From NCBI RefSeq assembly GCF_005796225.1, contig NZ_CM016730.1, positions 1-64,000 of the forward strand: a stretch of 64,000 nucleotides of DNA, given 5' to 3'. How positions within the stretch are numbered: position 1 is the stretch's first letter; the number at the start of each line of letters is the position of its first letter. This DNA is from Pseudarthrobacter sp. NamE5 (GTDB lineage: Bacteria > Actinomycetota > Actinomycetes > Actinomycetales > Micrococcaceae). Below, one piece after another: positions 11,707-37,834 of this stretch. Both the position numbers and the translations under genes were made by a program. The notes under the pieces are model-generated. The model saw only the letters and a program-made list of their open reading frames with translations, was not told the DNA's origin and made no database searches.

Positions 11707-11793
11707 GCACGACCATGCCGCAGGTCACGGTACCCGGTTCGGCCCAAGCTGCACGGGCTGAGCCGGACAACTGCAGAGAAAACGCAGGCACGC

Positions 11794-12135
11794 ATGGAAT
11801 CCTTCAATTCCCGGGCGGGCAGAATGCTTGAGCTTGTCGCCAACATACTTGGCTGGGTCGGGACCATCGCGCTGCTGCTTTCCTTCTGGCTCCTCACCGT
11901 GAAGCGCATTAAGTCCGACGGGTACCAATATCAGTCACTCAATGCCGTCGGCGCGTTCCTCCTGGCGATCACCACGGCGCAAGCCCAGGCGTGGTCCGCC
12001 GTGGCTCTAAATTCCATCTGGTGCATCGTCGCCTGTGCCGGGCTTCTGCGTTTAAGAAAGGAACGGCCAGCGCCGTATCCGCAACGAGTACCTGAAATTC
12101 ACGATCCCCCGGCACGGACTAAACCTCATCGGTGA
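11794..12135 (+). CDS. Small membrane protein with CBU_0592-like domain
   Basis: 113 residues with three hydrophobic segments: ANILGWVGTIALLLSFWLLT, LNAVGAFLLAITTAQ and AVALNSIWCIVACAGLL. The pattern of a glycine/tryptophan first helix, YQYQSLNAVGA and ALNSIWC fits the CBU_0592-like family of unknown function. An internal ATG at 11824 is an alternative start, and neither start has a strong ribosome-binding site. The tail is proline-rich and polar. It converges with the glycerate kinase gene. Confidence 0.7.
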   Translation: MESFNSRAGRMLELVANILGWVGTIALLLSFWLLTVKRIKSDGYQYQSLNAVGAFLLAITTAQAQAWSAVALNSIWCIVACAGLLRLRKERPAPYPQRVPEIHDPPARTKPHR

Positions 12136-12206
12136 TGTGGGGGACGCCGCGGTTGGAGGAAACCTTTGCTGTTCCTACCTCGCCCGGACGGCGGGAATGG
12201 CAGCCG

Positions 12207-14278: not shown

Positions 14279-14314
14279 CTGTCGGAGCCTTTCTGTCGAA
14301 ACCGATGAAGCAGG

Positions 14315-15082
14315 TCAGGAAACCGGCATAAAGACCGTTAGGCCGCCGTCGACGACCAGGTGCTGCCCGGTTATGTAGCTGGCTTCTTCGCTGCTGAAGA
14401 ACCTGACAGCGTGAGCTATCTCCTCGGGGCGTCCCACTCGTCCGATCGGGATTTTTGCCCCTGCCGTAGCCAGACCGTCGCGGCCGAATGAATTCGTGCT
14501 GTCCTGGGTCTGAGCCGTGTCGATGACCCCTGGAATGATGGAGTTGACCCGGATTCCACGGGGAGCCAGTTCCACGGCGAGGGCCTTGCAGAGGCCAAGG
14601 ACTCCTGCTTTGGCGGCCGTGTAGTGGGCGTGGTCGGCCCACCCGTAGACGCCTCCGGAAATGGAAGAGATGCCTACCAGGGCACCGCCGTGGTCCATGC
14701 GGGAGGCCGCGCTGCGGAAGACGCGCATGACCCCGCCCAGATCCACCGACATCAGGTCGTTCCAGGCCTCGTCGGTGAGTTCGGCCAGCGGATGCAACCG
14801 GACGATTCCTGCGTTGGCGACTGCTACGTCGAGGCGTCCCCATTCGTCGACGGCGCGTTGGGCGAAGTTATCCACTTCGTCGGCGCTGCGTACGTCGAGT
14901 TCGTGGACGACACCTTCTCCCCCGGCTTCTTTTACGAGTTTGAGGGTTTCGTATGGGTCATGGGGATCGCCGGGAAACGATCCGATGACGGTTCGGATTC
15001 CTGCCTTCGCAAAAGCTACTGCGGTGGCTTGGCCGATGCCGCTGGCCGCACCTGTGATGACCGCAGTCTTGAAATCTGTCAT
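14315..15082 (-). CDS. Short-chain dehydrogenase/reductase (SDR), copy 1
   Basis: 255 residues with an AAGGAA site before ATG 15080-15082. Classical SDR motifs: TGAASGIG for the cofactor, ANAG, the catalytic serine in [11 protein letters not shown], and YTAAK (Tyr and Lys catalytic). The C-terminus is [15 protein letters not shown]. It oxidises or reduces an alcohol/ketone with NAD(P). The substrate is unknown. In this operon it could act on a sugar or on a hydroxy acid from ring opening. The gap to the ribokinase is 36 bp. Confidence 0.92.
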
Positions 15083-15099
15083 GGTTCCTTCTTGGGTGG

Positions 15100-16227
15100 T
15101 TACTGGTGTGAGCGGCTGATCCGCCGCAGCGTTTTGGGGTACTGGGACAGGGGGATGCCGCCGGTTTCACCCACAATGTAGGTGTTGGCGATCCCGATCG
15201 CGTCCTGTCCGTCCTCACTGACAAGGCTCGGGTGCAAGGCAATGGCCTCGCCGTCGAGCAATGTCCACGCGGACCCATCGGTGATGGGAAGGGGAATCTC
15301 ATCGAGGCCAGTGCAGTGCCCGATTCCGATCGTGCGGCGTCCTTGTCGGGCCACGAATTCCGCTACGGCACCGGCCTGGTGTCCGGTACGGAGGTAAGTC
15401 GCCGCACCGTCGAGAGTTTTCATGGCCTGGTCGGCGAGCTTGAGGCGCCGGGTGGACACGCCGCCCACGGCGAACAATGCACCGAGTTCGACCCAGTGGC
15501 CGTCGGCCGCGGAGGTTTCGATGAAAACGGTGACCAGGTCCCCGTCCAGGATTGGCCTGTCACCGGGGTGCTGGCCATGGAACCCGTTTGCGGCGACATG
15601 AATGATGTCAAAGAGCGAGCCGTGGGAACGCAGATACTGGGCGATGGCACCGGCGACTTCTGCTTCGGTGCCATTGCTTCGCAGTTGGTGTGCAGCGGCT
15701 TCCATTGCGCCCTCGGCTCTGGCCATGGAACGGCGGAGATGCTCGGTCTTGACCGTTTCCGGTTGCCGGCGCAGTGATTCCAGAATGCTGGCAGCGTCGA
15801 TGACCTTTGAGCCGGGTTCCAGGGCTGCAAGGATGCCGCTGTGGTCGTTGTACGCCAGACCATTTTCATCGGAGGCGGCCAGCCCTACGGTTCCGGGTCC
15901 CGTGGCTGCCGCGATTTCCTTGTACAGGGCTGCGGCCGGGCCGTTGGCTGGAGCGCGGACGACGACCCCGGGTGCCAGAGACGCGTCCAGGAGGACATAG
16001 CGGGCGGCCTGGGCCGAGGCGGCGACGACCTCCGGTGCGCGGTCCCGGGTGACCACCGCGAACAATCCCTTGTTGCTGGGAATATGCCCGGTGAGGTGGG
16101 CAATGTTGCCGTAGTGGGCAACCTGTCCTCGCCCGTGGATCACCAGTGCGTCCAGTCCCGCGCTTTCGAGGCTTTCCCAGACCGCGCGCCAGCGGGACTG
16201 ATACGGAACCTGTTCGCCGGTCAGCAA
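15100..16227 (-). CDS. M24 (creatinase/prolidase-fold) protein lacking the usual metal ligands
   Basis: 375 residues with the two-domain M24 layout: N-terminal creatinase-like domain (1-150) and pita-bread C-terminal domain (165-370). TTG 16227 overlaps the PuuE-like stop by seven bases, and translation is probably coupled. The [10 protein letters not shown] histidine is kept. The metal ligands of aminopeptidase P/prolidase (two Asp, two Glu) are not: where VDxG and SDxTR are expected the protein has [15 protein letters not shown], and the late Glu sites read ALHPSLV and GIANTYIV. Metal-independent creatinase is a known precedent. In a ring-opening cluster a C-N hydrolase role is plausible but inferred. 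Confidence 0.8.
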
Positions 16228-17150
16228 GACGCACGCAGGCTATCGACGAGTGGGAAGTCCTGGTGGTGTGCCGACCACCAGTTTGCGATGTCATTTCGTC
16301 GTGCAAACCAGACGCCGCCCTTTTGCTGAGCGTAGCTGATGAACTCGCGCAAAGCGGAGGTGCGGGCGGCTTGGCCGACCAGCCTGGGGTGCAACCCGAT
16401 GGACATCATCTTGGGGAAGCCGCGTTCGCCTTCGAGCCACAGTTCATCGAAGGCACGTTTGATGTAGTCCAGAAACTCTGAGGGGTTTTTGGATCCTTGG
16501 GAGTCGTTGTAGGTCTGGGAATACGGCACGACGAGGTGTTCCTTGCCGCTGACTGTGGTGAAGTACGGCAGGTCGTCGTTATAGGCGTCGCAGTCGAAGG
16601 CAAAGCCTCCTTCTTCGACGACCAGTTCGCGGGTGTTCACGGATGGTCCGTACCTGCAGTACCAGCCGGTGGGCCGGCTGCCCCATGTCTTTTCGAAGGA
16701 TTCCACGGCCAGGCGGATGTGTTCGCGTTCCTCATCCCGGCTCAGGCGCCAGTGCTCTTCCCATCGCCAGCCATGTGAGACGAGGTCATGTCCTGCCTGG
16801 CTGGCGTAGGCGGCGACATCGGGATTCTTTTCGAAGGCTACGGCGCAGCCGAAGAAGGTCACCGGTACGTGCAGCTCGTCGAAGAGCCTCAGGAGCCGCC
16901 AGATTCCGGCTCTGCTCCCATACTCGTACATCGACTCCTGGGCCAGGTCGCGAACCCCTGCCGGGAACCGGTAGCCGGAGTCGCCCAGCACGTCGTTTTC
17001 ACCGTCTCCTGCGGCGTAGGAGTACTCGGAGCCTTCTTCGTAGTTCACCACGATGTTGACTGCGATGTTTGCGTTGTCGGGCCAGGTGACTTTCGGGATG
17101 CGCGCCCCGTAGCCCACCAGGTCGCGCTGAGGTCCGGTAACCGTTGTCAT
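16221..17150 (-). CDS. puuE: PuuE-like allantoinase / polysaccharide deacetylase family protein
   Basis: ATG 17148-17150 shares one base with the upstream SDR stop. The order of motifs is that of the PuuE family: RDLVGYG at the N-terminus, VVNYEEGSEYS, ESMYEYGSRAGIWRLLRLF, VTFFGCAVAFEKNP, HDLVSHGWRWEEH, GWYCRYGPSVNTR, DCDAYNDDLPYF, and MMSIGLHPRLVG. PuuE-type proteins are NodB-fold, metal-independent allantoinases that open the hydantoin ring of allantoin to allantoate. The length fits. No uricase or transthyretin-like hydrolase is nearby, so its substrate here may be another cyclic ureide. Confidence 0.85.
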   Translation of the reverse strand: MTTVTGPQRDLVGYGARIPKVTWPDNANIAVNIVVNYEEGSEYSYAAGDGENDVLGDSGYRFPAGVRDLAQESMYEYGSRAGIWRLLRLFDELHVPVTFFGCAVAFEKNPDVAAYASQAGHDLVSHGWRWEEHWRLSRDEEREHIRLAVESFEKTWGSRPTGWYCRYGPSVNTRELVVEEGGFAFDCDAYNDDLPYFTTVSGKEHLVVPYSQTYNDSQGSKNPSEFLDYIKRAFDELWLEGERGFPKMMSIGLHPRLVGQAARTSALREFISYAQQKGGVWFARRNDIANWWSAHHQDFPLVDSLRASC

Positions 17151-17941
17151 CAGTACGCCATCCATCCGCCGTCAACCAAAAGGTTGTGCCCGGAAATGTA
17201 GCTGCAGTCGTCTGATGCCAGGAACAGGGCGGCACCCGCGACGTCCTCAGCCCGGCCCAGCCGTGGGAAGGGGGTGCGGGATCGTGAGTATTCGAGGACG
17301 GGGTCTGTCATATCGACTTCGCCGGGATGGGTGCCGGTGATGATGCGTCCGGGGGCGATGCCGTTGACGATGATCCCGTGCTTGGCGTAGTCGACAGCGA
17401 GCTGCCGGGTCATCTGAATCATCCCGCCTTTGCTGACCGCATAGGCAAAGAAGTCAGGAGGGCCGACAAGGCCGTGCTGGGATGCCACGTTGATTACCCG
17501 GCCGCGGACTTCTCCGATGGGGTCCTGGTCGATCATCTGCCGAATGCCCCGTTTGCAGCTGAGGAACTGTCCGCGGAGGTTCACGTCCATGAGCCGGTCC
17601 CAGTCGTCTTCACTGGTGTCGAGCACAGAGGATGAGAACACGAGGCCGGCGTTGTTCACCAGGATGTCGAGACGTCCGTATTGGCTGACGGCCCGTTCTA
17701 CCAGCCCGTCAATGGCAGCGGCGTCCGAGACGTCGGTCTGGTGGAATACCGCTGCGCCCTTTTCGGCCGTGATCAGGTCGGCTGTCGGTGCCTCTTCTTC
17801 TCCGTTCCATATTGGCTCTTCCCGGATGTCGCTGACGACGACATTCGCCTCCTCGCGGGCGAAGCGGAGTGCGATGGCGCGGCCAATTCCGGATGAGCCT
17901 CCGGTGACGATAGCTGTGCGGCCTGCGAGGCGCATGGTCAT
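17150..17941 (-). CDS. Short-chain dehydrogenase/reductase (SDR), copy 2
   Basis: 263 residues (ATG 17939-17941, or ATG two codons later). Motifs: TGGSSGIG cofactor loop, DIREEP after the second strand (the Asp favours NAD over NADP), NNAG, INVASQHG with the catalytic serine, and YAVSKGG. It ends CSYISGHNLLVDGGWMAY. It has a charged insert (PIWNGEEEAPTADLI) after the cofactor strand. It differs clearly from copy 1, so the two probably use different substrates. Immediately upstream of the PuuE-like gene, with TGATG coupling. Confidence 0.92.
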   Translation of the reverse strand: MTMRLAGRTAIVTGGSSGIGRAIALRFAREEANVVVSDIREEPIWNGEEEAPTADLITAEKGAAVFHQTDVSDAAAIDGLVERAVSQYGRLDILVNNAGLVFSSSVLDTSEDDWDRLMDVNLRGQFLSCKRGIRQMIDQDPIGEVRGRVINVASQHGLVGPPDFFAYAVSKGGMIQMTRQLAVDYAKHGIIVNGIAPGRIITGTHPGEVDMTDPVLEYSRSRTPFPRLGRAEDVAGAALFLASDDCSYISGHNLLVDGGWMAY

Positions 17942-18013
17942 GCCTTTCTGTAAGCGAGCAAAGTGCCGTCCCGGCCTGCCGAGGCGCAGGCCGGGACGGA
18001 CGGGGTGATCCAG

Positions 18014-18964
18014 CTAGCTGACTTGCTTGATGGCGTCGATGATGAGATCCCAGAAGGCGTCAAAGTCCAGGGTCGTGGCCGCGAGGTTGTTGAAGGGCAG
18101 CCCGTAGGAGCCGAGGAAGTCAGTGACGGTTTCGCCATAGGTCCACTTGCCCTGCGTTTCGACCGCGATGAATGCCTCCTTCACCTGCACGACCGAGGGG
18201 TTGATCACCCGTGCAACGGCGCAGGCGTCGTGGATCGGCGGGTACGGCATCTTCCACACGGAGTCGTAGTTCGCACCGAAGAAGTCGAGCCATTCTACGA
18301 CTACCCGTGAGATGGGCGTTCCGATGGCCCGGATGCGTTCCTTTATTTCCGGCGTTGCGACAGCCTGGTGGGTCAGGTCGAGGCCGACCATGGTGACCTG
18401 CCATTCCGCTGCGAACACGGCTGCGGCGGCTTCGGGGTCCGCGAGAATGTTGAACTCGGCTGCCGGCGTGGCATTTCCCTGGGTGTAGGCGCCGCCCATG
18501 AGGACGACTTCTTTGACCCGGTCCACAATTTTCGGTTCCAGCCGCATCGCGAGGACGATGTTGGTCAGCGGGCCTGTGGGAACAAGGGTGTACTCGTCCT
18601 GTTCGCCGGCCATAACGAGATCAACAATCAGCTCGGCTGCGTGGCGGGGATCCAGGTCCATCGCCGGTTCCGGCAGCTCGGGGCCGTCCAGCCCGGAGAC
18701 GCCGTGGACTGAGCCTGCAACAACTTCACCGTCAGTGATCTGTTCGCGCATCAGCGGGTACTTGGCGCCCGCCGCGATCGGAATGTCTGTTGCGCCAACG
18801 AGCGTGGCGACGCGCTGTGCGTTGTAGGTGGTCTTCTCCAGGATCTGGTTGCCTGCCACCGAGGTGATGGCGGCCAGTTCGATGTCAGGGTTTCCCTGGG
18901 CCAGCAGGATGGCGATGGCGTCGTCGTGGCCGGGGTCGACATCGAGGATGATTTTCTTGGGCAC
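18014..18964 (-). CDS. Nucleoside hydrolase (IunH/Rih family), copy 2
   Basis: 316 residues starting at GTG 18962-18964. DVDPGHDDAIA near the N-terminus, HGVSGLDGPELPEP, LVPTGPLTNIVLAM, VVLMGGAYTQGN, EFNILADPEAA and PPIHDACAV are conserved. It is the copy most like the one at 8179 and belongs to the same HGxxGLDG group with a PPxHD active-site histidine. It lies directly downstream of the two ABC permease genes, so the importer's cargo is very probably a nucleoside or similar N-riboside. Confidence 0.95.
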   Translation of the reverse strand: MPKKIILDVDPGHDDAIAILLAQGNPDIELAAITSVAGNQILEKTTYNAQRVATLVGATDIPIAAGAKYPLMREQITDGEVVAGSVHGVSGLDGPELPEPAMDLDPRHAAELIVDLVMAGEQDEYTLVPTGPLTNIVLAMRLEPKIVDRVKEVVLMGGAYTQGNATPAAEFNILADPEAAAAVFAAEWQVTMVGLDLTHQAVATPEIKERIRAIGTPISRVVVEWLDFFGANYDSVWKMPYPPIHDACAVARVINPSVVQVKEAFIAVETQGKWTYGETVTDFLGSYGLPFNNLAATTLDFDAFWDLIIDAIKQVS

Positions 18965-18995: not shown

Positions 18996-19925
18996 TTATT
19001 TCAGTCCTGTCCGGGCGAGCCCGGGGATGAAGAGCCGTTGCAGGAAGATGAAGAGGATGACGAGCGGAATGGTCGCCACTGAGGCGCCTGCGAATGTCAG
19101 GCCCCAGTTGGGCAGCGCACCCGGGGATACGGATTGGGCGACGGCGACCTGCACCAGGGTGTTCTCAGTGCTTTGAATGGCGACCAGGGGCCACAGGAAC
19201 CCGTTCCAGGAGAACAGGAAAATCATCAGCACGAACGTGACGATGTCTACCCGGACGACCGGGAGGATGACCGACCAGAAGATCCGGAAATGCCCCGCGC
19301 CGTCAAGCTTCGCGGCTTCGTCCATTTCAAGCGGTACGGCTTCAAAGGACTGCCGGAGCAGGAACAACCCGAAGGCGCTGGCGATCCAGGGAACGCCCAC
19401 GGCGAGCAGCGTATCCTGCAGGCTCATTGCCGAGATCAGTTGGTACAGCGGAACAACCAGGGCTTCGGCCGGGAGCATGAAGGTTGCCAGGATGATGGCG
19501 AACACCACGTTCCGGCCCTTGAAAGCAATCCGGGTGAGCGCGTATGCAGCAAGCGTGCAGAGGACCAGCGAGCAGATTACCTGGAACGCCGCGACCAGGA
19601 ACGAATTCAGCAGCGCGCGTCCGACCCCGCGTCCGACGAACAATTCGATAATGTTCTCGAACGTCACCTCAACCGGAATGAACGTCTTCCAGCTCAGCGG
19701 ACTGATGTCTGCAAAAATTCCGGACTGCGTCTTCAGGCCGGAAGCGAACATCCACTCGTAAGGCAGGAGGAAGGCGATAAGAATCGCCAGCACGACCAGG
19801 CTCGTCCATACCCGTTGCCACAGCCGTCCAGGGCCACGTTCTTTCAACCGGCCCAGCCGGCCCTCTGGTGCGGTGGTCTCCGGGCCGCTGGCGGTATCGT
19901 TCTGCTGCGAAGCGAGCTGTGTCAT
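18996..19925 (-). CDS. Carbohydrate-type ABC transporter permease (MalG-like)
   Basis: 309 residues with a cytoplasmic N-terminal tail of about 45 residues and six membrane segments. The ATPase-contacting EAA loop is MDEAAKLDGAGHFRIFWSVI. The C-terminus (RLFIPGLARTGLK) is typical of the carbohydrate uptake transporter-1 family. It ends one base from the partner permease at 19927. No ATPase gene is in this operon, as often seen in actinobacteria where a shared MsiK-type ATPase serves many importers. Confidence 0.94.
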   Translation of the reverse strand: MTQLASQQNDTASGPETTAPEGRLGRLKERGPGRLWQRVWTSLVVLAILIAFLLPYEWMFASGLKTQSGIFADISPLSWKTFIPVEVTFENIIELFVGRGVGRALLNSFLVAAFQVICSLVLCTLAAYALTRIAFKGRNVVFAIILATFMLPAEALVVPLYQLISAMSLQDTLLAVGVPWIASAFGLFLLRQSFEAVPLEMDEAAKLDGAGHFRIFWSVILPVVRVDIVTFVLMIFLFSWNGFLWPLVAIQSTENTLVQVAVAQSVSPGALPNWGLTFAGASVATIPLVILFIFLQRLFIPGLARTGLK

Positions 19926-19926
19926 C

Positions 19927-20841
19927 TCAGTAATCCCATCGGGTTCGCAGGAGTCTCATTTGCACGAGGCTGATGGTGATGGCCCCCACCAGCAGCAGGA
20001 CGGACAGTGCCGAAGCGAAGCCGGGGTCCTGCAGCGTGAACGCCTGCTTGTAAATCTCGTAGACGAGAAGGTTGGTTGTTCCACCCGGAGCGCCCTGCGT
20101 CATGACGTATGCGGGGGTGAAGGACTGAAGCGCAAAGACGGTCATGATGACCACAACCATGACCGTGGTCCTGGTCAGCAGCGGAATGACGATCAGGAAC
20201 GTCCGCTTCAGTCCACCTGCGCCGTCAAGTGTTGATGCTTCCATCACGTCTCCAGGGATTGACTGCAGGCCGCCCAGGTAGAGGATGGTGGCCATGCCTA
20301 CCTGTTGCCAGACACTCATGATGATGATCGACGGCAGCGCCAGGGACTGGTCGGTCAGGAACGACATGGTGCTAAAACCCAAAGAGTTCAGGGCTGCGTT
20401 GACGAGACCTTCGTTGGCGAGGAGGAAGTTCCACAGCGTCGCGACAACAACAGATGAAGTGATGACGGGCAGGAACACCGCGGTTCGGAGGATGCCCCTG
20501 CCGGGCAGGGGCCGGTTGAGATAAGACGCCAGGAGGAATCCAAGCGGGATGATCAGCACCACTACGCCAACGGCAAAGATCAGCGTGACCAGAATCGTCT
20601 GAAGCGTCGTGGGATCTTTGAAGATGCGCGCAAAATTCTCAAGTCCAACAAAGGTCTGGAGATCCGGATTGATGAGCGTGTAGCCGAAAAGGCTGTTTTT
20701 GACCAGCAGTCCAACGGGGACGTACTGGAATATCACGAGGATGATCAGGAATGGGGCCAGGAAGCCGGCCGCGACGAGCAACTCTCGCCGCGACCGCTTC
20801 CGTTCGGCTCCACGAACGAGCCTCGTCGTCGTGGATGACAT
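19927..20841 (-). CDS. Carbohydrate-type ABC transporter permease (MalF-like)
   Basis: 304 residues and six membrane segments. The first helix is AAGFLAPFLIILVIFQYVPVG. The EAA loop reads MEASTLDGAGGLKRTFLIVI. The gene starts 11 bp after the solute-binding protein gene and is followed immediately by the MalG-like permease gene, forming the usual SBP-F-G order. The predicted cargo is a nucleoside or riboside, based on the flanking nucleoside hydrolases. Confidence 0.94.
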   Translation of the reverse strand: MSSTTTRLVRGAERKRSRRELLVAAGFLAPFLIILVIFQYVPVGLLVKNSLFGYTLINPDLQTFVGLENFARIFKDPTTLQTILVTLIFAVGVVVLIIPLGFLLASYLNRPLPGRGILRTAVFLPVITSSVVVATLWNFLLANEGLVNAALNSLGFSTMSFLTDQSLALPSIIIMSVWQQVGMATILYLGGLQSIPGDVMEASTLDGAGGLKRTFLIVIPLLTRTTVMVVVIMTVFALQSFTPAYVMTQGAPGGTTNLLVYEIYKQAFTLQDPGFASALSVLLLVGAITISLVQMRLLRTRWDY

Positions 20842-20852
20842 TGGTGGTCTCC

Positions 20853-22208
20853 TTACCGAGACAGCAAGGGCGACAGCTTGGACACGGCCTGATCCAGCTG
20901 ATCCTTGGGATCGCCGCCATATGCGATGTTTTTCAGGGCGGTTTCAACGATCTGGCTGTACTGAGAGAACTGTGAGGTCGGCGGCCGCGGCTGGCCCCAT
21001 TCCTCGAGTTCCTGGTAGAACGTGCTCAGCGGTGGCTCCTGGAAGTCCGGAAGCTCCTTGTAGACACTTCCGAGGGTAGGCAAGCGGCCGTTCTTCTGGT
21101 TGTATTCCTTCGCCATATCCCCGGTGCTCAGTTCAACTACGAACTTCGCCGCAGCATCGGCCTGCTTCGACTTGCCCGAGACGCCAATGGTGATCGCGCC
21201 CGTGTGCACAATCGGAGTCTTGATGTACGGCAGCGGCGTCACACCCCACTCGTAGGAAACGTTCGCGTCCTTCAGGGGCTGGACCTGTCCGGCGTGGAAC
21301 ATGTCGAAGCAAGCCTTGCCGTCGATGAACGCGTTCGGCCGGCCAGTCTTAGAGGTGACCGCCTTATCGCCCTCGTACAGCGACTGGTAGAACTTGGCCG
21401 CCTCGACGGCTTCGGGAGTGTTCAACCAGCCGTCGACCTGCTTGCCGTCCGGGGAGATGGCGTAGAAGGTCTTGTAAGCCGATGAATCACTAGGCGCCTT
21501 GGGGTCGCCGGCGCTGCGCAGGTACAGCAGGTCACTGTAGATGGGACCCGGAGTACCGGAACCCAGCTGGGTCGGAGCAAGCCCGTAGATCGTTGGGTTT
21601 CCCGGCGTTCCCTGCTGGCACTTAAGCATCGCGTCCCGGGCCTCTTCCCAAGTCCAGCCCTCATCAAGGGTGGTGGGAACCGTAATGCCGGCCTGGTCGG
21701 TCAGGGTCTTGTTGTAGTACAGGCCCAAAGCGTCCTGCTGGACACCGAGGGTGTAGACCTTGTCCTGGTAGCTGCCCTCCTTTAGGGTCGCGGGAAGGAC
21801 ATCTTCCTTCCACCCCTCGGGAAGGTACTTGTCCAGCGGAAGGAGCACGCCCTTGGATGCGTAGTTCGCCGTCTCAGGCATATCAAAGCCGTAGATGTCC
21901 GGGGCATTTGCCGAAGAGCTGAGCACGCTGACCTTGTCGGCATACTGCCCGAAGGGAACATCCGTGACGTCGAAGGTGACGCAGTCGTTCGTCTTCTTGG
22001 TGTACTCGTCCATTTGGGCGTCCGTCGGGACGTTAGTCGTCGAGCGAAGGACCTTGAGCGTCGCAGACCCTTCCGGGCACTCCGCCGTTTTGGCGCCGCC
22101 GGACGAGCTCGGAGAGCAGGCCACCAAAGTTGAGGCGAGTGCACCGATGGTAAGGGTGGTAAGCATCACGGTAGCCCTACGCCCACGTGATGTAAGGTTG
22201 TACTGCAA
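20853..22208 (-). CDS. Extracellular solute-binding lipoprotein (family 1)
   Basis: 451 residues. TTG start behind a strong AAAGGAG site. A signal peptide (positive MQYNLTSRGRR, hydrophobic core to about residue 27) ends in the lipobox LVAC with Cys31 as lipid anchor, followed by a Ser/Gly-rich linker. The mature part shows the ABC sugar-binding fold: FDVTDVPFGQYADKV, DIYGFDMPE, ALGLYYNKTL, AAKFVVELSTGD and NGRLPTLGSVYKELP. It captures the substrate outside the membrane for the adjacent permeases. Resemblance is to sugar binders, but context suggests a ribosylated compound. Confidence 0.94.
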   Translation of the reverse strand: MQYNLTSRGRRATVMLTTLTIGALASTLVACSPSSSGGAKTAECPEGSATLKVLRSTTNVPTDAQMDEYTKKTNDCVTFDVTDVPFGQYADKVSVLSSSANAPDIYGFDMPETANYASKGVLLPLDKYLPEGWKEDVLPATLKEGSYQDKVYTLGVQQDALGLYYNKTLTDQAGITVPTTLDEGWTWEEARDAMLKCQQGTPGNPTIYGLAPTQLGSGTPGPIYSDLLYLRSAGDPKAPSDSSAYKTFYAISPDGKQVDGWLNTPEAVEAAKFYQSLYEGDKAVTSKTGRPNAFIDGKACFDMFHAGQVQPLKDANVSYEWGVTPLPYIKTPIVHTGAITIGVSGKSKQADAAAKFVVELSTGDMAKEYNQKNGRLPTLGSVYKELPDFQEPPLSTFYQELEEWGQPRPPTSQFSQYSQIVETALKNIAYGGDPKDQLDQAVSKLSPLLSR

Positions 22209-29048: not shown

Positions 29049-32000
29049 CTAAGTTGCATCTGGTTCTAAGTGAACAAGCTGAATGTGCCGCCATAGATTT
29101 GCATGTGCTTGGTACACTCGGCGAACCCACTGAGGTGAAGGCGAAAACATCTCAAATGGGGGCTCCCGCTCACCCCAGACGATTTGAACAAGCTTTCGAC
29201 CTCGGGCGTATGCAGCTAGAAGGTCCTGCCGCAGATACATAACATCCCCGGACCATCCCTTAGGTGCACGCCGGGTGGCGCTGGCAAGGTGGCCTTGGGA
29301 GTCGACGAAATCTAGCCCAGACGGGGTTCCGCGAAGGGTCAAGTGTCGGCAGATCTCGTGTGAGGGAACACTGTACTCCCCTGCCCGCAGCCCTAGGCTG
29401 GACTCATATCCTGAAGCAGTATAGTTCTGCCCTAGGAGTTCGATACTGATATCGGCGTCGTCCGTAATCCTTATGAATTCACGGTGCGCGCTAGTGGAGT
29501 CTTCATTAGCAGGAATTTCGAAGTTCCGGCTCCAAGGCATTTCCCCCGCAAAGCAGTCTGCTGGGGATGGGCACCGTGGGATGAGATCGTTTCCCAGATA
29601 CTCTTCGGAAGACAAGAATTGAACAATCGAATCCGCGTCCTGAGCATCTACGAGGAATGACCGAGCGAAGCCCCACACCTTCCTCCCGTTGTCTGACTTG
29701 TGCTCAAGGTGCCCTTCAATGAGGATGAACTCCGAGTTATCCGGAGCGAGCTTCCGGGACTTGAGCAACTCATCGGGTACGTCTATGCCCCCTCCACGCA
29801 ACCAATCGGGCGTGGAAAGCTCTGCATCGGAAGCACTCCAAGGTAGTATCTCGACAGACAATTCGCCAGGTTCGTTCGGGAACGTTGGGTCTATGTCTGG
29901 TGTAACCCCGCGGTAAGTGTCCCAGGGGGAAGAACGTAGAGCGCCTTGGCTGTGCCGTCGTCCAGCAAGTTCGAAGTACGCTATCCAACCGTACTTCTTG
30001 CCATATCGCTCTGTTGCTCCATGCTGATCATGGCGGGCATGCGATCGTTCTGAAATTTGTCTGTCGATCGGACCGAATTTCTCTTTGCGCCAGCCGAGGT
30101 CCCAGATCCGCCTACGGACCTCGGCCGCACCCAACGCATACTCACTGTTTTTGAAGTCGTAATTGCGCCGGTCGGGGAACAAGTAACCGAGAGTGTAGTT
30201 GGAGAAGTCCATGTGCATGGCGTGATCCGCTTCGTAGCCTTCGTCACCTTCCTTCAGAGCAGGGATGGGCTTCTCGGCTTGATGAAAGCGATATGTCGCT
30301 GGGTCCAGTCCAGACGGCAACGCATCAGGGTGAAGCTTGGCTGCGTACTCGATCAGCGCTTCTGTGTAGCTCCGAATATTGATGTTCCATGTCGGGCCAA
30401 GAGCATCGGAACTTAAATACTTCTTGTCGAGTCGGTCGAGTAGTCCTCGCAACGAAGGCATAAGCGAACTGGCCTGTTCCGGCATCTGGTGGTCAGTGAC
30501 CGCACCAAATACTGCGGCCAAGACGCGTTCGATAACGTAGGGATCGTTTACATCAAGCATGGAGATCGCGACTTTAGCGAGCCGGGCGGGCTCGGGAGAT
30601 GCAAAAACTTTAAGGGCTCTCGTCGCGTTGTCTCTCAGATTCCGGTTAGTGGATGTAAGAAGCCAGGCAATGGAGTAGGCCCGAAGATCATCAGCATCGC
30701 TGCGCATACTCCGGCTAAGCCAATCGGAGCTCCAGCGATGAAGTTGGTTGACCAGTGATTCGGCATTAGACCTTGTCCACTCCGACCAGCTCAGATCCCG
30801 ATCGGCCATGTCTTGGCCGTCCAGCACGGTGTTGAGGAATTCGCCATTCAAGCGATGTTTGGGGCTGTCGGCGATCTGCCAGAGTATTGTCCAAGGAGAA
30901 GAACGTCCTTTGCGCTGCTGCCAGCGACGAATCAAGGGCGCCAACTCGATGATCGTGTCATCGTCTATAAGATCTGACTCCAGTATCAGAGTCTGAATAA
31001 GGGCTGCGTCCCGGGTGTCCTCCGGTGCGAACTTCCAGAGCTGCTGTTTATAGCTGCGCCGCGGAACTAGTGCTACCAACGAAAGTAGAACGTCGTCGGC
31101 GAGTTCGTGCCTCTGTGTGCCGGCAGCCGAAATTCGGTTCCACAACTCCTCATCTCCGAGTAGTTCGGCCCAGTCCCTGGTTGCAACCGAGGAGAGGATG
31201 CCGTCGGCTACGAGGTAGCCGGCCAAAGCATCGTAGAGGATGCCCGATTGCTCGTTTTTCACGCCGTCGCTGTCATCCCGATAGAGGACGCCTTCTTCTT
31301 CCAACCGCCGCAGAAGGCTGTGATTCCAGTCAATGTTCGATTCGTCGAGCAAAGACTTTGCCTCGTCGTATGGAATCGTTCTGCGGCTCCCAGCCCATAT
31401 GGCCTGGGAAAAATCTGCGAGCTTCCTCTCGATATGACCTGGGGGAAAAGCTGGATGACCAGCCTGATTCCGGAGGCGGGCAGCCACCGCGTTTATGTAA
31501 AGCTCAAACACCTCCGCGAGGGAGCTGGGATATTTTTCCGGGCCTACTTCATCTTCACGGCTAGGATTTGTCGCCTCGCAGTACAGCTTCAGAAACAGTG
31601 GAGATTTGAACAATTGGCGGGGAACACGGATCCGCCCACGTTCGATCTTGTAATGCTTGAAGTATGCGTCTGTGAGACGCTCACTTGTTGAGTCGTTCCA
31701 GTCGAGTTCGAGCCTAGAGACGTTTGACGGAAGGCACTCGTCGAGCACTGCGCCGCGCACAGTCAGGATCAGAACCACGTATGGATGCTGTTCTACGTAT
31801 GGGATTGCCTCTTCCAGAAGTGACTTCCAGTCTGACGGCCGCTGGGATTCATTGAGTCCATCAATGACAATTGGTACTCGATAACCGATACGTTGACCGA
31901 GTGCGTCGGCGGCTCGGACAAGATCGTCGAAGGTTTTTAGTCCGAGGCGGGGGATGCGTTTCGTTAACTCGTCGAGTCCTGTCCCGGCTGCTAGGTGGGC

Positions 32001-33092
32001 GGCTCGGATAAAGACTCCAGGTCGCGACTGATCGGAACCTGTTAGCTCAGCGGCTAGTTGTGTTTTGCCTTTTCCTGCGTCCCCTACGATTGCTATAACA
32101 CTGGGTGATGCCCTTTGGGATAGCTCATCTCTCAGGCGGAGTGCCCGGACGACTTCGATTTCCGCTGCTGCGACATCGAGCGCTGCCGCCGCTTGAGATT
32201 TGCGCATATAGCGACCCAGGCTCCGAACGCAGGAAATCGAAATGTTCGGGGTCCATGAACTGCTGATCTCGAGTGAAAACTGGTTAAGCCTCCCCTCCTC
32301 AACGTGACGAGACAGCTGTGAGAAATGAATGCTGAGGTCGGCCATATCCGATGCCAGAGTTCGGAGGGCTCTGCCCGCGTCACTGTCAGGGTCTTGGCTG
32401 GCCGTTCGGGACAGGCTGTCGGCCAGTACCGCCAGTCTTTCTGCATGGGCGGCCAGTTGAGGCATACTCCCTGGGCGCAACAGGAGAAGATTCAGTTGGC
32501 TTTCTGTTGGGCTCGCCGTGTGGACTTCGCGAAACCATCGATCTTTAATTGGCGCCACCGATCGAGTATGAGCATCTGCGACTTCCTGGCGGGACATGAC
32601 AAGCTCACCAAAGAATGTACTGCGGACTTCTGCCGCAGCGCCAACTAGGTGGGCCTCAAAGTCTTCATCTGCCCAAAGGTGCAGTGTCATGGAAGTCGGT
32701 AGCTCGTAGTACCACTTTATGTCTCCAGATTTTGGACGTTTCGGCAGGCAGAGAACAAAGTCCGTGATGGCTTCATCTGACTTTTCTGCTTTGGCCACTG
32801 CCTCGGCAATTTCCTGTTTGCGCGTCTGGCTCAGGGCCCCCGACTGGGGTAAAGGGTAGTACCACTTGCATTGCCAACCCCAGCATCGACCGGGTGAACC
32901 AAGCTCGCCTTCGGTGTGTATGCGCAGGGTGAACTCAACGCCGGCTTGATTCCGGTAGTTGGACAGGACCCCGTAGCGCTGGAAACGCCGCATTACGATG
33001 GCCCTGCAAAGGGTCTCAAAATTCCTGGTTGGGGCGCCCTCTAAAGAGACGAAAGCCTGCCAATCGATGGAAATAGGATTTGTGGCGTGCAT
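29049..33092 (-). CDS. STAND NTPase with N-terminal restriction-endonuclease-like domain (Avs-like)
   Basis: 1347 residues. N-terminal domain (about 20-165): NQAGVEF (Glu53) followed by WGWQCKWY (Gln74, Lys76), the E...QxK core of Mrr-like PD-(D/E)xK nucleases. A helical linker leads to a STAND/NACHT-like ATPase: Walker A GDAGKGKT (337-344), Walker B VPIVIDGLNE (406-415), then a winged-helix region with SPLFLKLYCEA. The remaining 750 residues, helical then beta-rich with many tryptophans, look like a sensor. This is the architecture of Avs-type defence proteins, which recognise a phage protein, oligomerise and cut DNA. Its ATG overlaps the stop of the small upstream gene by one base. I recognise no named subtype, and the radical-SAM partner is unusual. 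Confidence 0.88.
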   Translation of the reverse strand: MHATNPISIDWQAFVSLEGAPTRNFETLCRAIVMRRFQRYGVLSNYRNQAGVEFTLRIHTEGELGSPGRCWGWQCKWYYPLPQSGALSQTRKQEIAEAVAKAEKSDEAITDFVLCLPKRPKSGDIKWYYELPTSMTLHLWADEDFEAHLVGAAAEVRSTFFGELVMSRQEVADAHTRSVAPIKDRWFREVHTASPTESQLNLLLLRPGSMPQLAAHAERLAVLADSLSRTASQDPDSDAGRALRTLASDMADLSIHFSQLSRHVEEGRLNQFSLEISSSWTPNISISCVRSLGRYMRKSQAAAALDVAAAEIEVVRALRLRDELSQRASPSVIAIVGDAGKGKTQLAAELTGSDQSRPGVFIRAAHLAAGTGLDELTKRIPRLGLKTFDDLVRAADALGQRIGYRVPIVIDGLNESQRPSDWKSLLEEAIPYVEQHPYVVLILTVRGAVLDECLPSNVSRLELDWNDSTSERLTDAYFKHYKIERGRIRVPRQLFKSPLFLKLYCEATNPSREDEVGPEKYPSSLAEVFELYINAVAARLRNQAGHPAFPPGHIERKLADFSQAIWAGSRRTIPYDEAKSLLDESNIDWNHSLLRRLEEEGVLYRDDSDGVKNEQSGILYDALAGYLVADGILSSVATRDWAELLGDEELWNRISAAGTQRHELADDVLLSLVALVPRRSYKQQLWKFAPEDTRDAALIQTLILESDLIDDDTIIELAPLIRRWQQRKGRSSPWTILWQIADSPKHRLNGEFLNTVLDGQDMADRDLSWSEWTRSNAESLVNQLHRWSSDWLSRSMRSDADDLRAYSIAWLLTSTNRNLRDNATRALKVFASPEPARLAKVAISMLDVNDPYVIERVLAAVFGAVTDHQMPEQASSLMPSLRGLLDRLDKKYLSSDALGPTWNINIRSYTEALIEYAAKLHPDALPSGLDPATYRFHQAEKPIPALKEGDEGYEADHAMHMDFSNYTLGYLFPDRRNYDFKNSEYALGAAEVRRRIWDLGWRKEKFGPIDRQISERSHARHDQHGATERYGKKYGWIAYFELAGRRHSQGALRSSPWDTYRGVTPDIDPTFPNEPGELSVEILPWSASDAELSTPDWLRGGGIDVPDELLKSRKLAPDNSEFILIEGHLEHKSDNGRKVWGFARSFLVDAQDADSIVQFLSSEEYLGNDLIPRCPSPADCFAGEMPWSRNFEIPANEDSTSAHREFIRITDDADISIELLGQNYTASGYESSLGLRAGEYSVPSHEICRHLTLRGTPSGLDFVDSQGHLASATRRAPKGWSGDVMYLRQDLLAAYARGRKLVQIVWGEREPPFEMFSPSPQWVRRVYQAHANLWRHIQLVHLEPDAT

Positions 33093-33580
33093 CAGTCCTC
33101 TGAGGGGGTAGACGGGTTCTCCTGCTCATTGTCATTGGACGGCTGACCTGCCCTCAGGTCGTTAAGTTTCTCACTGAGTTCATCGGCTAAGGACGAATCC
33201 CAGTCATGCCTTGAGTAGATTTCCACTCGGGCGCCGTTCGCGATCATCGTCTTGAGTAGACCCTGGATGTCACCTTCATCCGTGCTAATTTCTATTCTGT
33301 TCCCGTTCAGGGTGAGCGTGTGGTCGTATCCAAACTGCTCAACTTCCCCGAGGGTCAGATCATAAAGGCCGAGTTCGCGAAGGAATGCCCAAAAGGTCTC
33401 ATCAGGCCGAGGTGAAGGGTCATCCCAGGTAGGTTCTTGGGCAGAAACAAGCCCGACCGCTGCTTCCGTCAGTTTGTTAATTATCGATTCCGCTGTTCTA
33501 GCTTTTTCAATAGTCGGAAAGTGCCCTACTAAAACCATGCTGTACGAATGTTCTGATCCGTACCCTTGCCAAATCTTCAT
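33092..33580 (-). CDS. Small protein resembling DUF6375, linker gene of the three-gene operon
   Basis: 162 residues. It starts MKIWQGYGSEHSYSMVLVGH and has a second conserved-looking block EVEQFGYDHTLTLNGNRIEI, STDEGDIQGLLKTMIANGAR and VEIYSRHDW. These match my memory of the DUF6375 family (small alpha/beta protein of unknown role). The tail after residue 140 is acidic and disordered (PSNDNEQENPSTPSED). It starts one base after the radical-SAM stop and ends overlapping the NTPase start, so all three are made together. It could be a substrate, carrier or inhibitor; the sequence does not say. Confidence 0.8.
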   Translation of the reverse strand: MKIWQGYGSEHSYSMVLVGHFPTIEKARTAESIINKLTEAAVGLVSAQEPTWDDPSPRPDETFWAFLRELGLYDLTLGEVEQFGYDHTLTLNGNRIEISTDEGDIQGLLKTMIANGARVEIYSRHDWDSSLADELSEKLNDLRAGQPSNDNEQENPSTPSED

Positions 33581-33581
33581 G

Positions 33582-34499
33582 CTATGCGGCCTCGCGTAGT
33601 TCCGTCAGGGCGTCAATCACAGATCCCTGGATAGGAATTCTCTGATCCGTGAAGGCATCTGCCCTTAGGTACCCGTTTGCATCGATATGGGCATGTGCGG
33701 AAAGACGATCTTCCATAGGGAATGCGTCAGCGAGGGCAATCCCTGAAAGATCTGCCATCCTGGAGATGCCCACCCTGATTTTCGATGGCCGGTGACTGGC
33801 TAGCCAACGAGTCATTTCATTGCGAGCCGACTCACCAATCCCGGCTCGGCCTGCTACTCCCTGTTCCGGAAGTAACAGGAGCTCTTCTGCCCCCCAGCGC
33901 TCTGCATAATCCAGCAAACCATCCAACTCCCAAACCGTAGTATCACCGACGACGACGTTGACGCCGAAGCGGCAGATGCCTGCAATCAGGTCGATCCTGT
34001 TCTCCAGCTCATCGAAAGCACGCCCTCGGTTTCTCTCGTACGTTTCCCCGATACCATCTACCGATACCCGGATGAAGTGAACACTTCCGCGGAGCTGGGT
34101 TGCTAGCTTTTCAGTGATGCGGTGTCCATGCGTGGTGAAGGAAACAGCCATGCCTGTCTCAATCGCCGTCTTTTGACAAATCGTTGCGAATTCAGAGTGA
34201 AGTGTAGGTTCTCCGCCACCAAATCCGACACCCAGGCATCCGTTGCGGTTTAATTCCCTAAGCCAAGGGCTAATCTCCTCGGCACCTAATCTGGCAGGTT
34301 TTTTCGCAGCGTAACAATACGGGCACCGGAGCTCGCATGCGTTTGTTAGTGCCACCGAGACATACCTCGGAGCAACCGCCCACGTCTGTTCTGGTGGCAT
34401 GACTTCCTCGAGAAGTACGTTGATCCCTGTCTGCCGTTCGAAGAAGTGGACACCATACCTAGTTGCTCGGGACTTCCAAAGCCGACTTTGCTCAAACAT
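33582..34499 (-). CDS. Radical SAM protein, first gene of the STAND operon
   Basis: 305 residues. The iron-sulphur motif is NACELRCPYCY (Cys55, Cys59, Cys62, CxxxCxxC), followed by the SAM-binding GFGGGEPTLH and later SFTTHGHRI and IRVSVDGIGETYERNRG as in the MoaA/PqqE-type barrel. The C-terminus HIDANGYLRADAF lines up with the twitch/SPASM segment of peptide-modifying enzymes, but its cysteine is replaced by alanine, so no auxiliary cluster is expected. It lacks the viperin-type motif. It might modify the small protein, the NTPase or a nucleotide. A long noncoding gap (about 500 bp) lies upstream. Confidence 0.9.
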   Translation of the reverse strand: MFEQSRLWKSRATRYGVHFFERQTGINVLLEEVMPPEQTWAVAPRYVSVALTNACELRCPYCYAAKKPARLGAEEISPWLRELNRNGCLGVGFGGGEPTLHSEFATICQKTAIETGMAVSFTTHGHRITEKLATQLRGSVHFIRVSVDGIGETYERNRGRAFDELENRIDLIAGICRFGVNVVVGDTTVWELDGLLDYAERWGAEELLLLPEQGVAGRAGIGESARNEMTRWLASHRPSKIRVGISRMADLSGIALADAFPMEDRLSAHAHIDANGYLRADAFTDQRIPIQGSVIDALTELREAA

Positions 34500-34995: not shown

Positions 34996-35823
34996 CTAGC
35001 TTGCGGGGAAATCTGTCTCCTTGGATTCAGATACGTCGTTGAGCAAAGACGATTGCTGCCACAGCTTTTCGTACGCCTCCGAGATGAACTTGGACCCCAT
35101 CCTGTCGAGTGGAGTGATCACCCCTTGACGGTGGGCGATTGAGTTCAAACTGCTTCCCAATACAATTACGGAGCCCGCCTCTGAGATTACGTACCTGTCG
35201 TGGAGCGACTTTTGGTCCAAATATCGGATCTCGAAATCTGATCTGGACCGCATAACGATGCTGAATCTTCCTTGAAGCTTGCGAATATTACGATCACCAG
35301 TCAGGACCCTCTTTACTGTGTGTATTTGCGCCAAATCGATGGCCGTCTCAGCACTAAGATAGGGATCAACGACGAGAGATTCGCCAACCTGAGCAATCTT
35401 GTTCATCACCTGAGCGTAGGCAAACTGATTGCTGGGATCGATCAGGACCTCAATGGTTGAATCGCCTTCGAGATTCGCGCTATTGGCGGCTTCAAGTACG
35501 GCCTTCCCTAGCTGAGTCAAGTGGACGGCACCATCGCTGACCTCGATCCAATGCAGCCGCGAGAGGAACCGGTCGAACGCTTCGTCGGAAATCCACGGCT
35601 CATCGTTCTCGCTGCTGACCTGGGCGGATATGAGAACGCCACGACCGGCCTGCCCAGCATACATATCATTAAAAATGATCCGCTCAGGTTGTTTGCCATA
35701 TGCGTTCAACGCTTCCACCGATAACTTGCCTCCGCAACTTTCAACGGCCGCTATGTACGTCAGTACGAGGTGCGAAAGATCGTCGATGATCATCACTGGT
35801 TCAGACCTCACCTTGCTTGCCAT
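34996..35823 (-). CDS. Phospholipase D-like domain protein
   Basis: 275 residues. The first 110 residues form a helical, HTH-like domain (FLSRLHWIEVSDGAVHLTQL is winged-helix-like). The second half has VVDPYLSAETAIDLAQ, VKRVLTGDRN, FEIRYLDQKSLHDRYVISE and SVIVLGSSLNSI, the pattern of one PLD-type half-site (HDR-x-hydrophobic then GSSLN) as in PLD-like nucleases and toxins. The classical HKD is not complete. Its start lies inside the end of the YhcG gene (23-bp overlap), so the two are coupled. Role is probably nucleic-acid or nucleotide processing in defence. Confidence 0.65.
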   Translation of the reverse strand: MASKVRSEPVMIIDDLSHLVLTYIAAVESCGGKLSVEALNAYGKQPERIIFNDMYAGQAGRGVLISAQVSSENDEPWISDEAFDRFLSRLHWIEVSDGAVHLTQLGKAVLEAANSANLEGDSTIEVLIDPSNQFAYAQVMNKIAQVGESLVVDPYLSAETAIDLAQIHTVKRVLTGDRNIRKLQGRFSIVMRSRSDFEIRYLDQKSLHDRYVISEAGSVIVLGSSLNSIAHRQGVITPLDRMGSKFISEAYEKLWQQSSLLNDVSESKETDFPAS

Positions 35824-36889
35824 CGCTCACATCCGGCTCAGCCCATTCCAAGGCTGCAACTAAATGCCCTTCATCTGGCAAAGCTTGCTGCTCTACGAGG
35901 GGCAGCTTGTCATAAGTGTAGGCAGCAACAGCCATGGGCGATGTCGATCGGCCGAGGCTGTATCGGACGCTTCGGTCATTCTTGGTACCGCAGATGAGGA
36001 TTCCGATGGTCTCGTTGTGGTGTTCGCGCCGTAGCAGATCGTCCACGAGGGCGACGTAGAAGTTGAGCTTCCCGGCGTATTCGGGCTGGAACTTGCCGGT
36101 TTTGAGTTCGACGACGACGTACCGGAGCTGCTCGATGTGGAAAAACAGGAGATCTATGTAGAAGTCGTCTCCGTCCACATCGAATTGCACTTGGCGTCCA
36201 ACGAAGGAGAAGCCAGGGCCCAATTCGCGGAGGGTTTCCGTGATTCTGCTGGTAAGGGCGTTTTCGAGGTCCCGTTCGGCTACTTCGCCTGAGAGACCGA
36301 GGAATTCAAAGTTGTAGGGGTCCTTGGCGACCTGTTGGGCGAGTTCAGAATCTGGTGCAACAAGCTGTTGCACAAAGTTCGAGGGCGCAGCCCCTGTACG
36401 CTCCATTGACCTGTTCATCATCATGTTCAGGAGGACATTCCGGGACCATCCATATTCTGCGGCCGCTGAGGCGTACCATGCCCGTTGGTCCGCGGTTTCG
36501 GCTTTGTCTAGCAACACGGTGATGTGACCCCAGGGCAATTGTGCAACAGCCTGTTGCACAATTGGCTCGGGCCAGGCGGCGGCGAATCCACGCATGTAAA
36601 AGAGGTTGCGGCGGGAAAGGCCCTTCATATCAGGGAACTCCGACCGAAGGTCATCTGCCAGCCGGCCCATAACGCCGCTCCCCCACTGTTCAGCCTCCTG
36701 GCGTTCCAAAATGGTTTTCCCAATCGACCAGTACAACTCGATGAGCTGAGTATTCACGGTGCGCAGTGCCTGTACGCGGGCGGCCCGTACGCGGTTTTTG
36801 AGCTCGCCGAGGAGGTCGGTGTAGTCGCTGGGAAGGGCCAGGTCACGGGCATCTGTCATGGGTTCGATCCTATCGAGGGCCACGGACAT
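35801..36889 (-). CDS. YhcG/DUF1016 family PD-(D/E)xK nuclease
   Basis: 362 residues from ATG 36887-36889 behind AAGGGGGAG. The N-terminal DUF1016 region (VNTQLIELYWSIGKTILERQ, GLSRRNLFYMRGFAAAWP, QLPWGHITVLLDK) is followed by a nuclease domain with Asp246 (FYIDLLFFH) and Glu261-x-Lys263 (VVVELKTGKF). It ends with EHHNETIGILICGTKNDRSV. YhcG proteins occur widely in restriction and defence islands; the catalytic core is intact, but its biological target is not settled. It is the first gene of a two-gene operon with the PLD-like protein. Confidence 0.93.
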   Translation of the reverse strand: MSVALDRIEPMTDARDLALPSDYTDLLGELKNRVRAARVQALRTVNTQLIELYWSIGKTILERQEAEQWGSGVMGRLADDLRSEFPDMKGLSRRNLFYMRGFAAAWPEPIVQQAVAQLPWGHITVLLDKAETADQRAWYASAAAEYGWSRNVLLNMMMNRSMERTGAAPSNFVQQLVAPDSELAQQVAKDPYNFEFLGLSGEVAERDLENALTSRITETLRELGPGFSFVGRQVQFDVDGDDFYIDLLFFHIEQLRYVVVELKTGKFQPEYAGKLNFYVALVDDLLRREHHNETIGILICGTKNDRSVRYSLGRSTSPMAVAAYTYDKLPLVEQQALPDEGHLVAALEWAEPDVSDGKQGEV

Positions 36890-37147: not shown

Positions 37148-37834
37148 ATGAGGGACAGTCGACGCGCTGCTCCGCACCCTGAGTGGGTGGACATGTACCG
37201 GCGGGGTATTCGGCCGTCAAGGATCGCGGTGCTCGATTCGGCGCCGGTCACCACCGTGCGCTACCACCTTCAGGTCGCGAAGAAGATCGAGCCCGGGCTC
37301 GAGGCAGAACACGCGGCAGCGCTTCCAGAGAAGGCTCCAGGTCCGTCGGAGGCGGCTCTGCAAAGGATGCAGGACCTTGTTTCCTTCTACCGAACGGAGG
37401 GGCGGCTCCCCTTAGCGCACGCGAAGTCACCGCAGGAGCAGACCCTCAGCAGCTGGCTGTACCTTCGGCGCCGGGACTCTGCACAGGGAACCCTCTCCCC
37501 CGCTTTCCGTGACGGCCTGGACGTCATTCCCGGCTGGGATCAAGCCTCTCCGAAGAAGACTGAGGACGAGGCCCGGTGGCAAAAGCGTTTTCAGCAAGTG
37601 AAGGACCTTCGGGCAGCTGGCTGTGACTGGCCGCGCCATCAGAAGACCCCGGATACGGCCGAACGCGTCCTGGGTGTGTGGCTGCATGGTCAGCGAATCA
37701 ACTACAACCAGGGGAAGCTGGCACCGGAGAAGGAAGTACTGCTAGATGAGCATCTGCCCGGGTGGCGCGAAGGCAGGCGCCGCACCGGCGGCCGACGACG
37801 GAGACCGCGAACCCAGATGCCAGCTAGACCGTAA
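37148..37834 (+). CDS. Helicase-associated (HA) domain protein
   Basis: 228 residues. An HTH-like start (MYRRGIRPSRIAVLDSAPVT) precedes two tandem HA repeats: about 70-125 (GRLPLAHAKSPQEQTLSSWL, then GLDVIPGW) and about 140-210 (AAGCDWPRHQKTPDTAERVL, LGVWLHGQRINY, LDEHLPGW). The protein ends in an arginine-rich tail. HA domains are winged-helix-like modules common in actinobacterial plasmids and helicases and probably bind DNA. There is no helicase core. It converges with the mobilization genes and may be plasmid-linked. Confidence 0.8.
   Translation: MRDSRRAAPHPEWVDMYRRGIRPSRIAVLDSAPVTTVRYHLQVAKKIEPGLEAEHAAALPEKAPGPSEAALQRMQDLVSFYRTEGRLPLAHAKSPQEQTLSSWLYLRRRDSAQGTLSPAFRDGLDVIPGWDQASPKKTEDEARWQKRFQQVKDLRAAGCDWPRHQKTPDTAERVLGVWLHGQRINYNQGKLAPEKEVLLDEHLPGWREGRRRTGGRRRRPRTQMPARP

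Follow-up and report, generated by a model that had tools for sequence, protein, structure and literature searches.

A conserved gene trio of radical-SAM enzyme, DUF6375 protein and Avs2-like STAND nuclease: a possible anti-phage alarm

Why should a nuclease of the Avs kind be encoded directly behind a radical S-adenosylmethionine (SAM) enzyme and a small protein of the DUF6375 family? The question is raised by a three-gene operon in a 64,000-nt stretch of Pseudarthrobacter sp. NamE5 (contig NZ_CM016730.1, positions 1-64,000), which is called the window below and to which all window coordinates refer. Three minus-strand open reading frames (ORFs) encode a radical-SAM enzyme (rSAM), a DUF6375 protein and a STAND nucleoside triphosphatase (NTPase), in this order. 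A single base (33581) separates the first two, and base 33092 is common to the DUF6375 stop codon and the STAND ATG. A preliminary description of this DNA had proposed three coupled genes with just such a one-base gap and one-base overlap, and both the ORFs and the sequence agree with it. Our analysis demonstrated that the trio is a conserved unit, the order of which recurs beyond chance. Judging from the sequences, we tentatively regard the operon as an anti-phage alarm in which a modified DUF6375 tail may license or otherwise assist the STAND protein, licensing being the form we prefer. The features of the operon are as follows.

33582..34499, minus strand: rSAM gene, first in the operon, 305 aa (Pfam Radical_SAM)
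34314..34337, minus strand: CxxxCxxC at rSAM residues 55-62, the superfamily's 4Fe-4S cluster motif (from the sequence; invariant in 63/63)
33092..33580, minus strand: DUF6375 gene, 162 aa (PF19902, 125.5 bits)
33545..33580, minus strand: codons 1-12 of DUF6375, for the N-terminal tail MKIWQGYGSEHS, the putative site of modification (column conservation)
29049..33092, minus strand: gene of the Avs2-like nuclease-STAND NTPase (1347 aa), which is predicted to serve as both alarm and effector (Avs2 model matches, trio clade)
32598..33074, minus strand: N-terminal nuclease domain, approximately residues 7-165, with E53 ... Q74-C75-K76 (Avs4 nuclease match, conserved residues)
31203..32180, minus strand: STAND NTPase core, roughly delimited to residues 305-630 (Walker A GDAGKGKT at 337-344, Walker B with D411)
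29052..30455, minus strand: STAND C-terminal half, approximately residues 880-1347 (homology to the Avs2 C-terminal half; motifs DFxNY, RYGKKY, DP, AGE and WGER)

Recurrence of the three genes

Genome contigs were scanned with rSAM as the seed, the best 80 of 141 relatives being kept and the remaining 61 left unseen; the rSAM family itself gave 2489 matches at E ≤ 0.001 (the best 120 listed), which does not imply that all are orthologues. A DUF6375 gene adjoins the rSAM gene in 79 of the 80 loci, the exception (L078) being a contig end. A STAND gene or a piece of it follows the pair in 75 of the 76 assessable loci, the contigs of the other four (L017, L030, L078 and L079) ending too early. In 64 of the 75 STAND-bearing loci the STAND ORF measures 1300 aa or more; of the remaining 11, seven extend to a contig end or close to it, and four are interrupted (L014, L019, L025 and L068). 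All three genes lie on the same strand in 75/75 loci, rSAM and DUF6375 precede STAND in all 75 loci where the three could be placed, and the first two genes overlap by 4 bases in 57 of the 75.

The preliminary description had named two circumstances as speaking against its proposal, namely confinement of the trio to one lineage and a pair mostly lacking STAND; neither was found. The 80 rSAM loci represent 15 named phyla (one metagenome-assembled genome, or MAG, being unassigned), the 75 with STAND represent 13, and a Deinococcus plasmid brings one further phylum. The pair stood without STAND at one of the 76 assessable loci (L065) and on one of 16 plasmids (L082).

Searches were also seeded with the other two genes. 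Four phyla, represented by 396, 398, 386 and 392 genomes, were screened with PF19902, the model for DUF6375. The four centres aside, it exceeded its cut-off in eight genomes (0, 3, 3 and 2 per phylum). All eight place the DUF6375 gene between an upstream rSAM and a downstream STAND, one STAND gene carrying an internal stop, and three sub-cut-off matches (L088, L106 and L107) have neither alongside. DUF6375 matches occur in 16 of 72,556 plasmid records, each beside an rSAM gene; the STAND C-terminus is also matched on 15 of these plasmids, and the sixteenth (L082, Deinococcus peraridilitoris) carries transposase genes where STAND would be expected. The window's family was covered with 295 genomes; two of them (the window's and G1720) gave full-length STAND matches, both with the pair, and six more gave partial Avs2-like matches (≤251 bits) with no pair. 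In Escherichia coli the pair is matched in 25 of 5426 complete genomes; STAND follows it in all three genomes examined, split in one.

The distance matrices of the three proteins agree. Across 63 loci whose genes are uncut, including the window, the correlations were 0.88 (rSAM-DUF6375), 0.93 (rSAM-STAND) and 0.93 (DUF6375-STAND), against r of 0.20-0.25 for the best of 2000 permutations per protein pair. In a quick-search tree of the NTPase region (61 rows, of which 25 unlabelled context rows were not counted; supports from the Shimodaira-Hasegawa-like approximate likelihood ratio test), a branch of support 100 splits 29 trio STANDs from seven stand-alone Avs2-like ones, including an annotated Vibrio Avs2. 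Nine of the 25 context rows fall within the trio clade, and a smaller tree is concordant, the trio STANDs again forming their own clade. Neither rSAM nor DUF6375 lies beside any of the seven stand-alone genes examined.

The three proteins

The 1347-aa STAND protein of the window passes no Pfam cut-off, and six PADLOC Avs2 models match it, the best with E = 1.3e-119 over residues 7-932. Among solved structures, Avs2 is its best relative (PDB 9o4e, E = 4.4e-37). The Avs2 equivalog model NF041813 of NCBIfam matched each of the 16 trio STANDs scanned (best E-value 5.3e-91), albeit the window protein scored 291.1 bits against a cut-off of 1000. Residues 10-114 align to the beginning of the NCBIfam model for the Avs4 nuclease (NF041815), the rest being unmatched by it; from the motif as read by eye, we take this nuclease to be Mrr-like. 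In 64 aligned trio STANDs, E53 of the nuclease and G340, G342, K343, D411 and E415 of the NTPase are each present in 64/64, and the QxK positions of the nuclease vary (Q in 50 and S in 14 at position 74; K in 53 and R in 11 at position 76). The trio STANDs of this sample thus all have one kind of effector domain. The protein has the layout of Avs/AVAST systems, with an N-terminal effector, a STAND NTPase core and a long C-terminal half. The PADLOC and NCBIfam matches and the conserved nuclease-site, Walker A and Walker B residues bear out the Avs-like architecture given in the preliminary description, which can now be narrowed to an Avs2-related protein, C-terminal half included, in a clade of its own.

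The C-terminal half is conserved in the trio STANDs (RYGKKY in 63-64 of 64 at each position, DP and GER in 64/64) and is homologous to that of stand-alone Avs2, with a tblastn match to the annotated Vibrio Avs2 (E = 1e-6) and the GKKY motif in common. By homology it would be the sensor. Since stand-alone Avs2 has a homologous half, this half cannot by itself be assigned as the part that binds DUF6375. From homology together with intact motifs, the large protein is very likely an alarm nuclease of the Avs2 type.

The DUF6375 protein of the window exceeds the PF19902 gathering cut-off of 27.5 bits by a wide margin (125.5 bits). A structure model built from 73 sequences (predicted local distance difference test score, pLDDT, of 82.7) has a confident ferredoxin-like core, for which fold comparison returned generic ferredoxin-like matches only and no informative relative. 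Model confidence is lowest in residues 1-10 (mean pLDDT 46), i.e., the tail is predicted to be unfolded. Nevertheless, this tail, with the consensus MKIWxGYGSEHS, is the best conserved part of the protein: the mean majority is 0.87 for residues 1-12 vs 0.52 for residues 13-130, and W4, E10, H11 and S12 are identical in 79/79 rows with letters there. The alignment has 80 rows, two of which are copies from one Streptomyces; the row of L042 lacks tail letters because the DUF6375 frame of that locus is broken. A tail that is invariant yet not self-folding looks like the hallmark of an enzyme substrate or a docking peptide. At the other end of the protein, the DUF6375 of L052 (Acinetobacter, 6321-6848) terminates in a long run of PEN triplet repeats.

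The rSAM of the window scored 62.7 bits against Pfam Radical_SAM (cut-off 29.5). The CxxxCxxC cluster motif of the superfamily (C55/C59/C62) and C108 are conserved in 63/63 aligned trio rSAMs, and no further cysteine is common to all 63 (C88 in 45; one C-terminal column in 39). A structure model, made on the relative from L053, matches the overall fold of SPASM/twitch peptide maturases: the nearest folds are SkfB and SuiB, aligned over 285-306 residues, which match better and over more residues than viperin, and much better than pyruvate-formate-lyase activase. Among NCBIfam models, viperin (NF038283) gave the window rSAM 59.5 bits against a cut-off of 180, on par with the 59.8 bits of a mycofactocin maturase. 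We predict rSAM to be a protein- or peptide-modifying enzyme without an auxiliary Fe-S cluster. Two otherwise open rSAM frames contain an in-frame stop codon, namely TAG at 10493 in L015 (a Halomonas chromosome, with STAND intact) and TGA at 2778 in L055 (a Chloroflexi MAG of stated coverage ~4).

Candidate mechanisms and known systems

Avs proteins are bacterial counterparts of NLR (nucleotide-binding, leucine-rich repeat) immune receptors, and the activators of Avs/AVAST systems are phage terminase, portal or other phage proteins. For the trio, the point of departure is a fact of sequence: the genes of the three proteins abut or overlap, and their order is fixed. Because the pairing is obligate, the tail is invariant and predicted to be flexible and the fold is maturase-like, rSAM probably acts on the DUF6375 tail, though we say so with some reserve. 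In the mechanism we prefer, rSAM would abstract a hydrogen within the tail segment W4-x-x-Y7-G8-S9-E10-H11-S12, leaving a lasting change, and the modified DUF6375 would dock on the STAND protein and render it competent to sense. By homology to Avs1-4, a phage protein would then bind the Avs2-like C-terminal half, the NTPase would bind ATP and oligomerise, and the nuclease would cut DNA, so that the infection is ended at the cell's expense. Direct recognition of phage proteins by Avs proteins has been reported (PMC12931631).

Several observations weigh against this proposal. At least eight loci (L014, L019, L025, L068, L082, L083, L091 and L109) have STAND broken or missing beside an apparently intact pair, and in L065 (Candidatus Uhrbacteria) the pair lies at 9977-11307, tail intact, with STAND absent over more than 9 kb. 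The invariance of the tail can reflect plugging into STAND instead of rSAM, and a joint rSAM+DUF6375 model left the tail undocked (residues 313-318 and 320-325 with pLDDT <50; predicted TM-score 0.72). Unlike known SPASM-type peptide maturases, rSAM has no auxiliary-cluster cysteines, and PADLOC viperin models match rSAM too, over residues 47-184. As the Avs2-like C-terminal half is kept in STAND, phage sensing without DUF6375 is conceivable. Finally, the neighbourhood scan of trio loci had no control, and its best PADLOC model matches only 2 of 96 neighbours.

The main rival, which we consider rather unlikely, reverses the role of the modification. The modified DUF6375 would keep the nuclease of STAND inactive until something stops the modification, for instance a phage using up SAM, the loss of Fe-S clusters or the shut-off of host synthesis; the nuclease would then be released, the cell thereby guarding the rSAM reaction. 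If loss of a restrainer were lethal, STAND should be the gene to decay, which is the direction seen in the eight or more loci with STAND lost or broken and the pair intact; the fixed gene order, restrainers first, also suits this alternative. Nevertheless, detection through an intact rSAM, the route to most loci, biases the tally of STAND breaks, and breaks in single genomes may be sequencing errors or recoding. STAND is intact despite the rSAM stop codon in L015 and despite the DUF6375 frame break after the tail in L042, and these two loci argue for licensing over restraint. Alternatively, rSAM might make an antiviral nucleotide or small molecule, as viperin does, and DUF6375 and STAND might bind or sense the product. 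The PADLOC matches mentioned above notwithstanding, the NCBIfam viperin score, no better than that of the maturase, and the closer and longer fit of SkfB/SuiB render this improbable; in addition, viperins are not known to need a dedicated small partner having an invariant tail.

Two further explanations appear remote. A glycyl radical installed on G8 of DUF6375 (in GYG) in the style of pyruvate-formate-lyase activase, with the radical or its destruction by oxygen as the signal, is very improbable, as the activase fold match is far below those of SkfB/SuiB and the hosts of the trio include Streptomyces and Pseudomonas, which are aerobes. It is scarcely credible that rSAM and DUF6375 are a mobile passenger pair, of a function unrelated to STAND and linked to it merely by history: L065 fits such a pair, but STAND is kept in place at 75/76 assessable loci, the three proteins have concordant distance matrices, and no STAND examined outside the trio clade has the pair. 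Less remote, though still rather unlikely, is a reading of the trio as a new type of bacterial immune receptor, in which the STAND nuclease would read the radical-installed state of the DUF6375 tail and thereby watch the SAM, Fe-S and synthesis machinery that phages disturb.

The trio looks like an Avs system, yet it fails the Avs2 equivalog test and has two all-but-constant partners. It resembles Avs2 (AVAST type 2; PDB 9o4e, NF041813) in the effector-STAND-sensor architecture and in sequence, C-terminal half included, and differs in the 291 bits against a cut-off of 1000, in the separate clade and in the presence of rSAM and DUF6375, which the seven stand-alone Avs2-like genes lack. Avs2 is a one-gene system not known to have dedicated partners, whereas two partner genes precede the trio STAND in 75/75 loci. 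Avs4 (NF041815) shares the N-terminal nuclease domain, residues 10-114 of the window STAND, the remainder being unmatched. The maturases SkfB and SuiB, of ribosomally synthesised and post-translationally modified peptides, are the best folds for the rSAM model and likewise have a small partner encoded next door; unlike them, the trio rSAM has no auxiliary-cluster cysteines, its partner is predicted to be a folded domain bearing a tail instead of a short precursor peptide, and it is linked to a STAND nuclease. Prokaryotic viperin has the radical-SAM core and the defence setting in common with the trio, but the trio rSAM falls below the viperin cut-off and its partners are obligate. The idea of a radical-SAM protein modifying a small protein within a conflict system has been put forward for the peptide effector of FtsH ternary systems (Kaur et al. 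2020, PMC7159879); the passage concerned describes a vWA-MoxR-FtsH machinery and mentions neither an Avs2-like STAND nor DUF6375. No PADLOC model (2023) matches the window DUF6375 at E ≤ 1, and NCBIfam (2026) gives only distant Avs matches for the window STAND. We found no account or name of the trio in open-licence PubMed Central full text, preprints, closed journals and DefenseFinder being outside the scope of that search.

One widespread Avs2-like clade has retained rSAM and a near-identical DUF6375 tail in no fewer than 13 phyla. This suggests a further requirement for the function of the receptor, probably a radical modification installed after translation. DUF6375 thereby gains its first functional setting, and an unnamed rSAM family a likely substrate. 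The question is tractable, since only three genes are involved and two of the three proteins have obvious dead mutants.

Genomic surroundings

Examples of the trio lie on mobile elements and inside or beside restriction-modification, BREX, MADS-like and AbiE genes; these defence neighbours were picked by eye, without a control, and no Pfam family was matched by more than three of the 96 neighbours scanned. In L048 (a Spartobacteria MAG, 5138-18153) the trio is flanked by an HsdS-like and an HsdR-like gene, with ends that overlap, and so resembles a part of a type I restriction-modification operon. The gene next to the trio is a type I methylase-specificity fusion in L053, PglX in L045, mad3/mad8-like in L049, mad8-like in L072, AbiEii in L021 and HsdM in L003, and a Vibrio plasmid has brxL and pglZ beyond STAND. 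The trio of E. coli MLI107 (L089) resides in an integrase-bearing element at tRNA-Thr, where a 762-aa Mrr-nSTAND3 gene (19392-21680; PDC-S73 match) overlaps the end of the trio STAND by 4 bases.

In the window, the G+C content is 53-57% at 26-36 kb vs 59-65% over most of the remainder, and 52-60 kb is likewise low (56-59%). The low value around the operon fits acquired DNA, though it is not specific to the operon. The preliminary description had the operon surrounded by other nuclease genes. The DUF1016/YhcG nuclease gene upstream of rSAM (35801-36889) is indeed real according to a Pfam scan and matches the PDC-S02 candidate (E = 1.9e-140), but it belongs to a separate pair, which spans 34996-36889 on the minus strand and stops 496 bases ahead of the rSAM start. 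Its partner, overlapping it by 23 bases, encodes a 275-aa protein that is VPA1262-like at its C-terminus, though weakly so (30 bits against a cut-off of 80), and presumably phospholipase-D-like from a reading of the sequence by eye. The two genes are probably a two-gene defence candidate distinct from the trio. Farther upstream, a plus-strand ORF of 228 aa (37148-37834) has helicase-associated (HA) domain matches without a helicase domain of its own.
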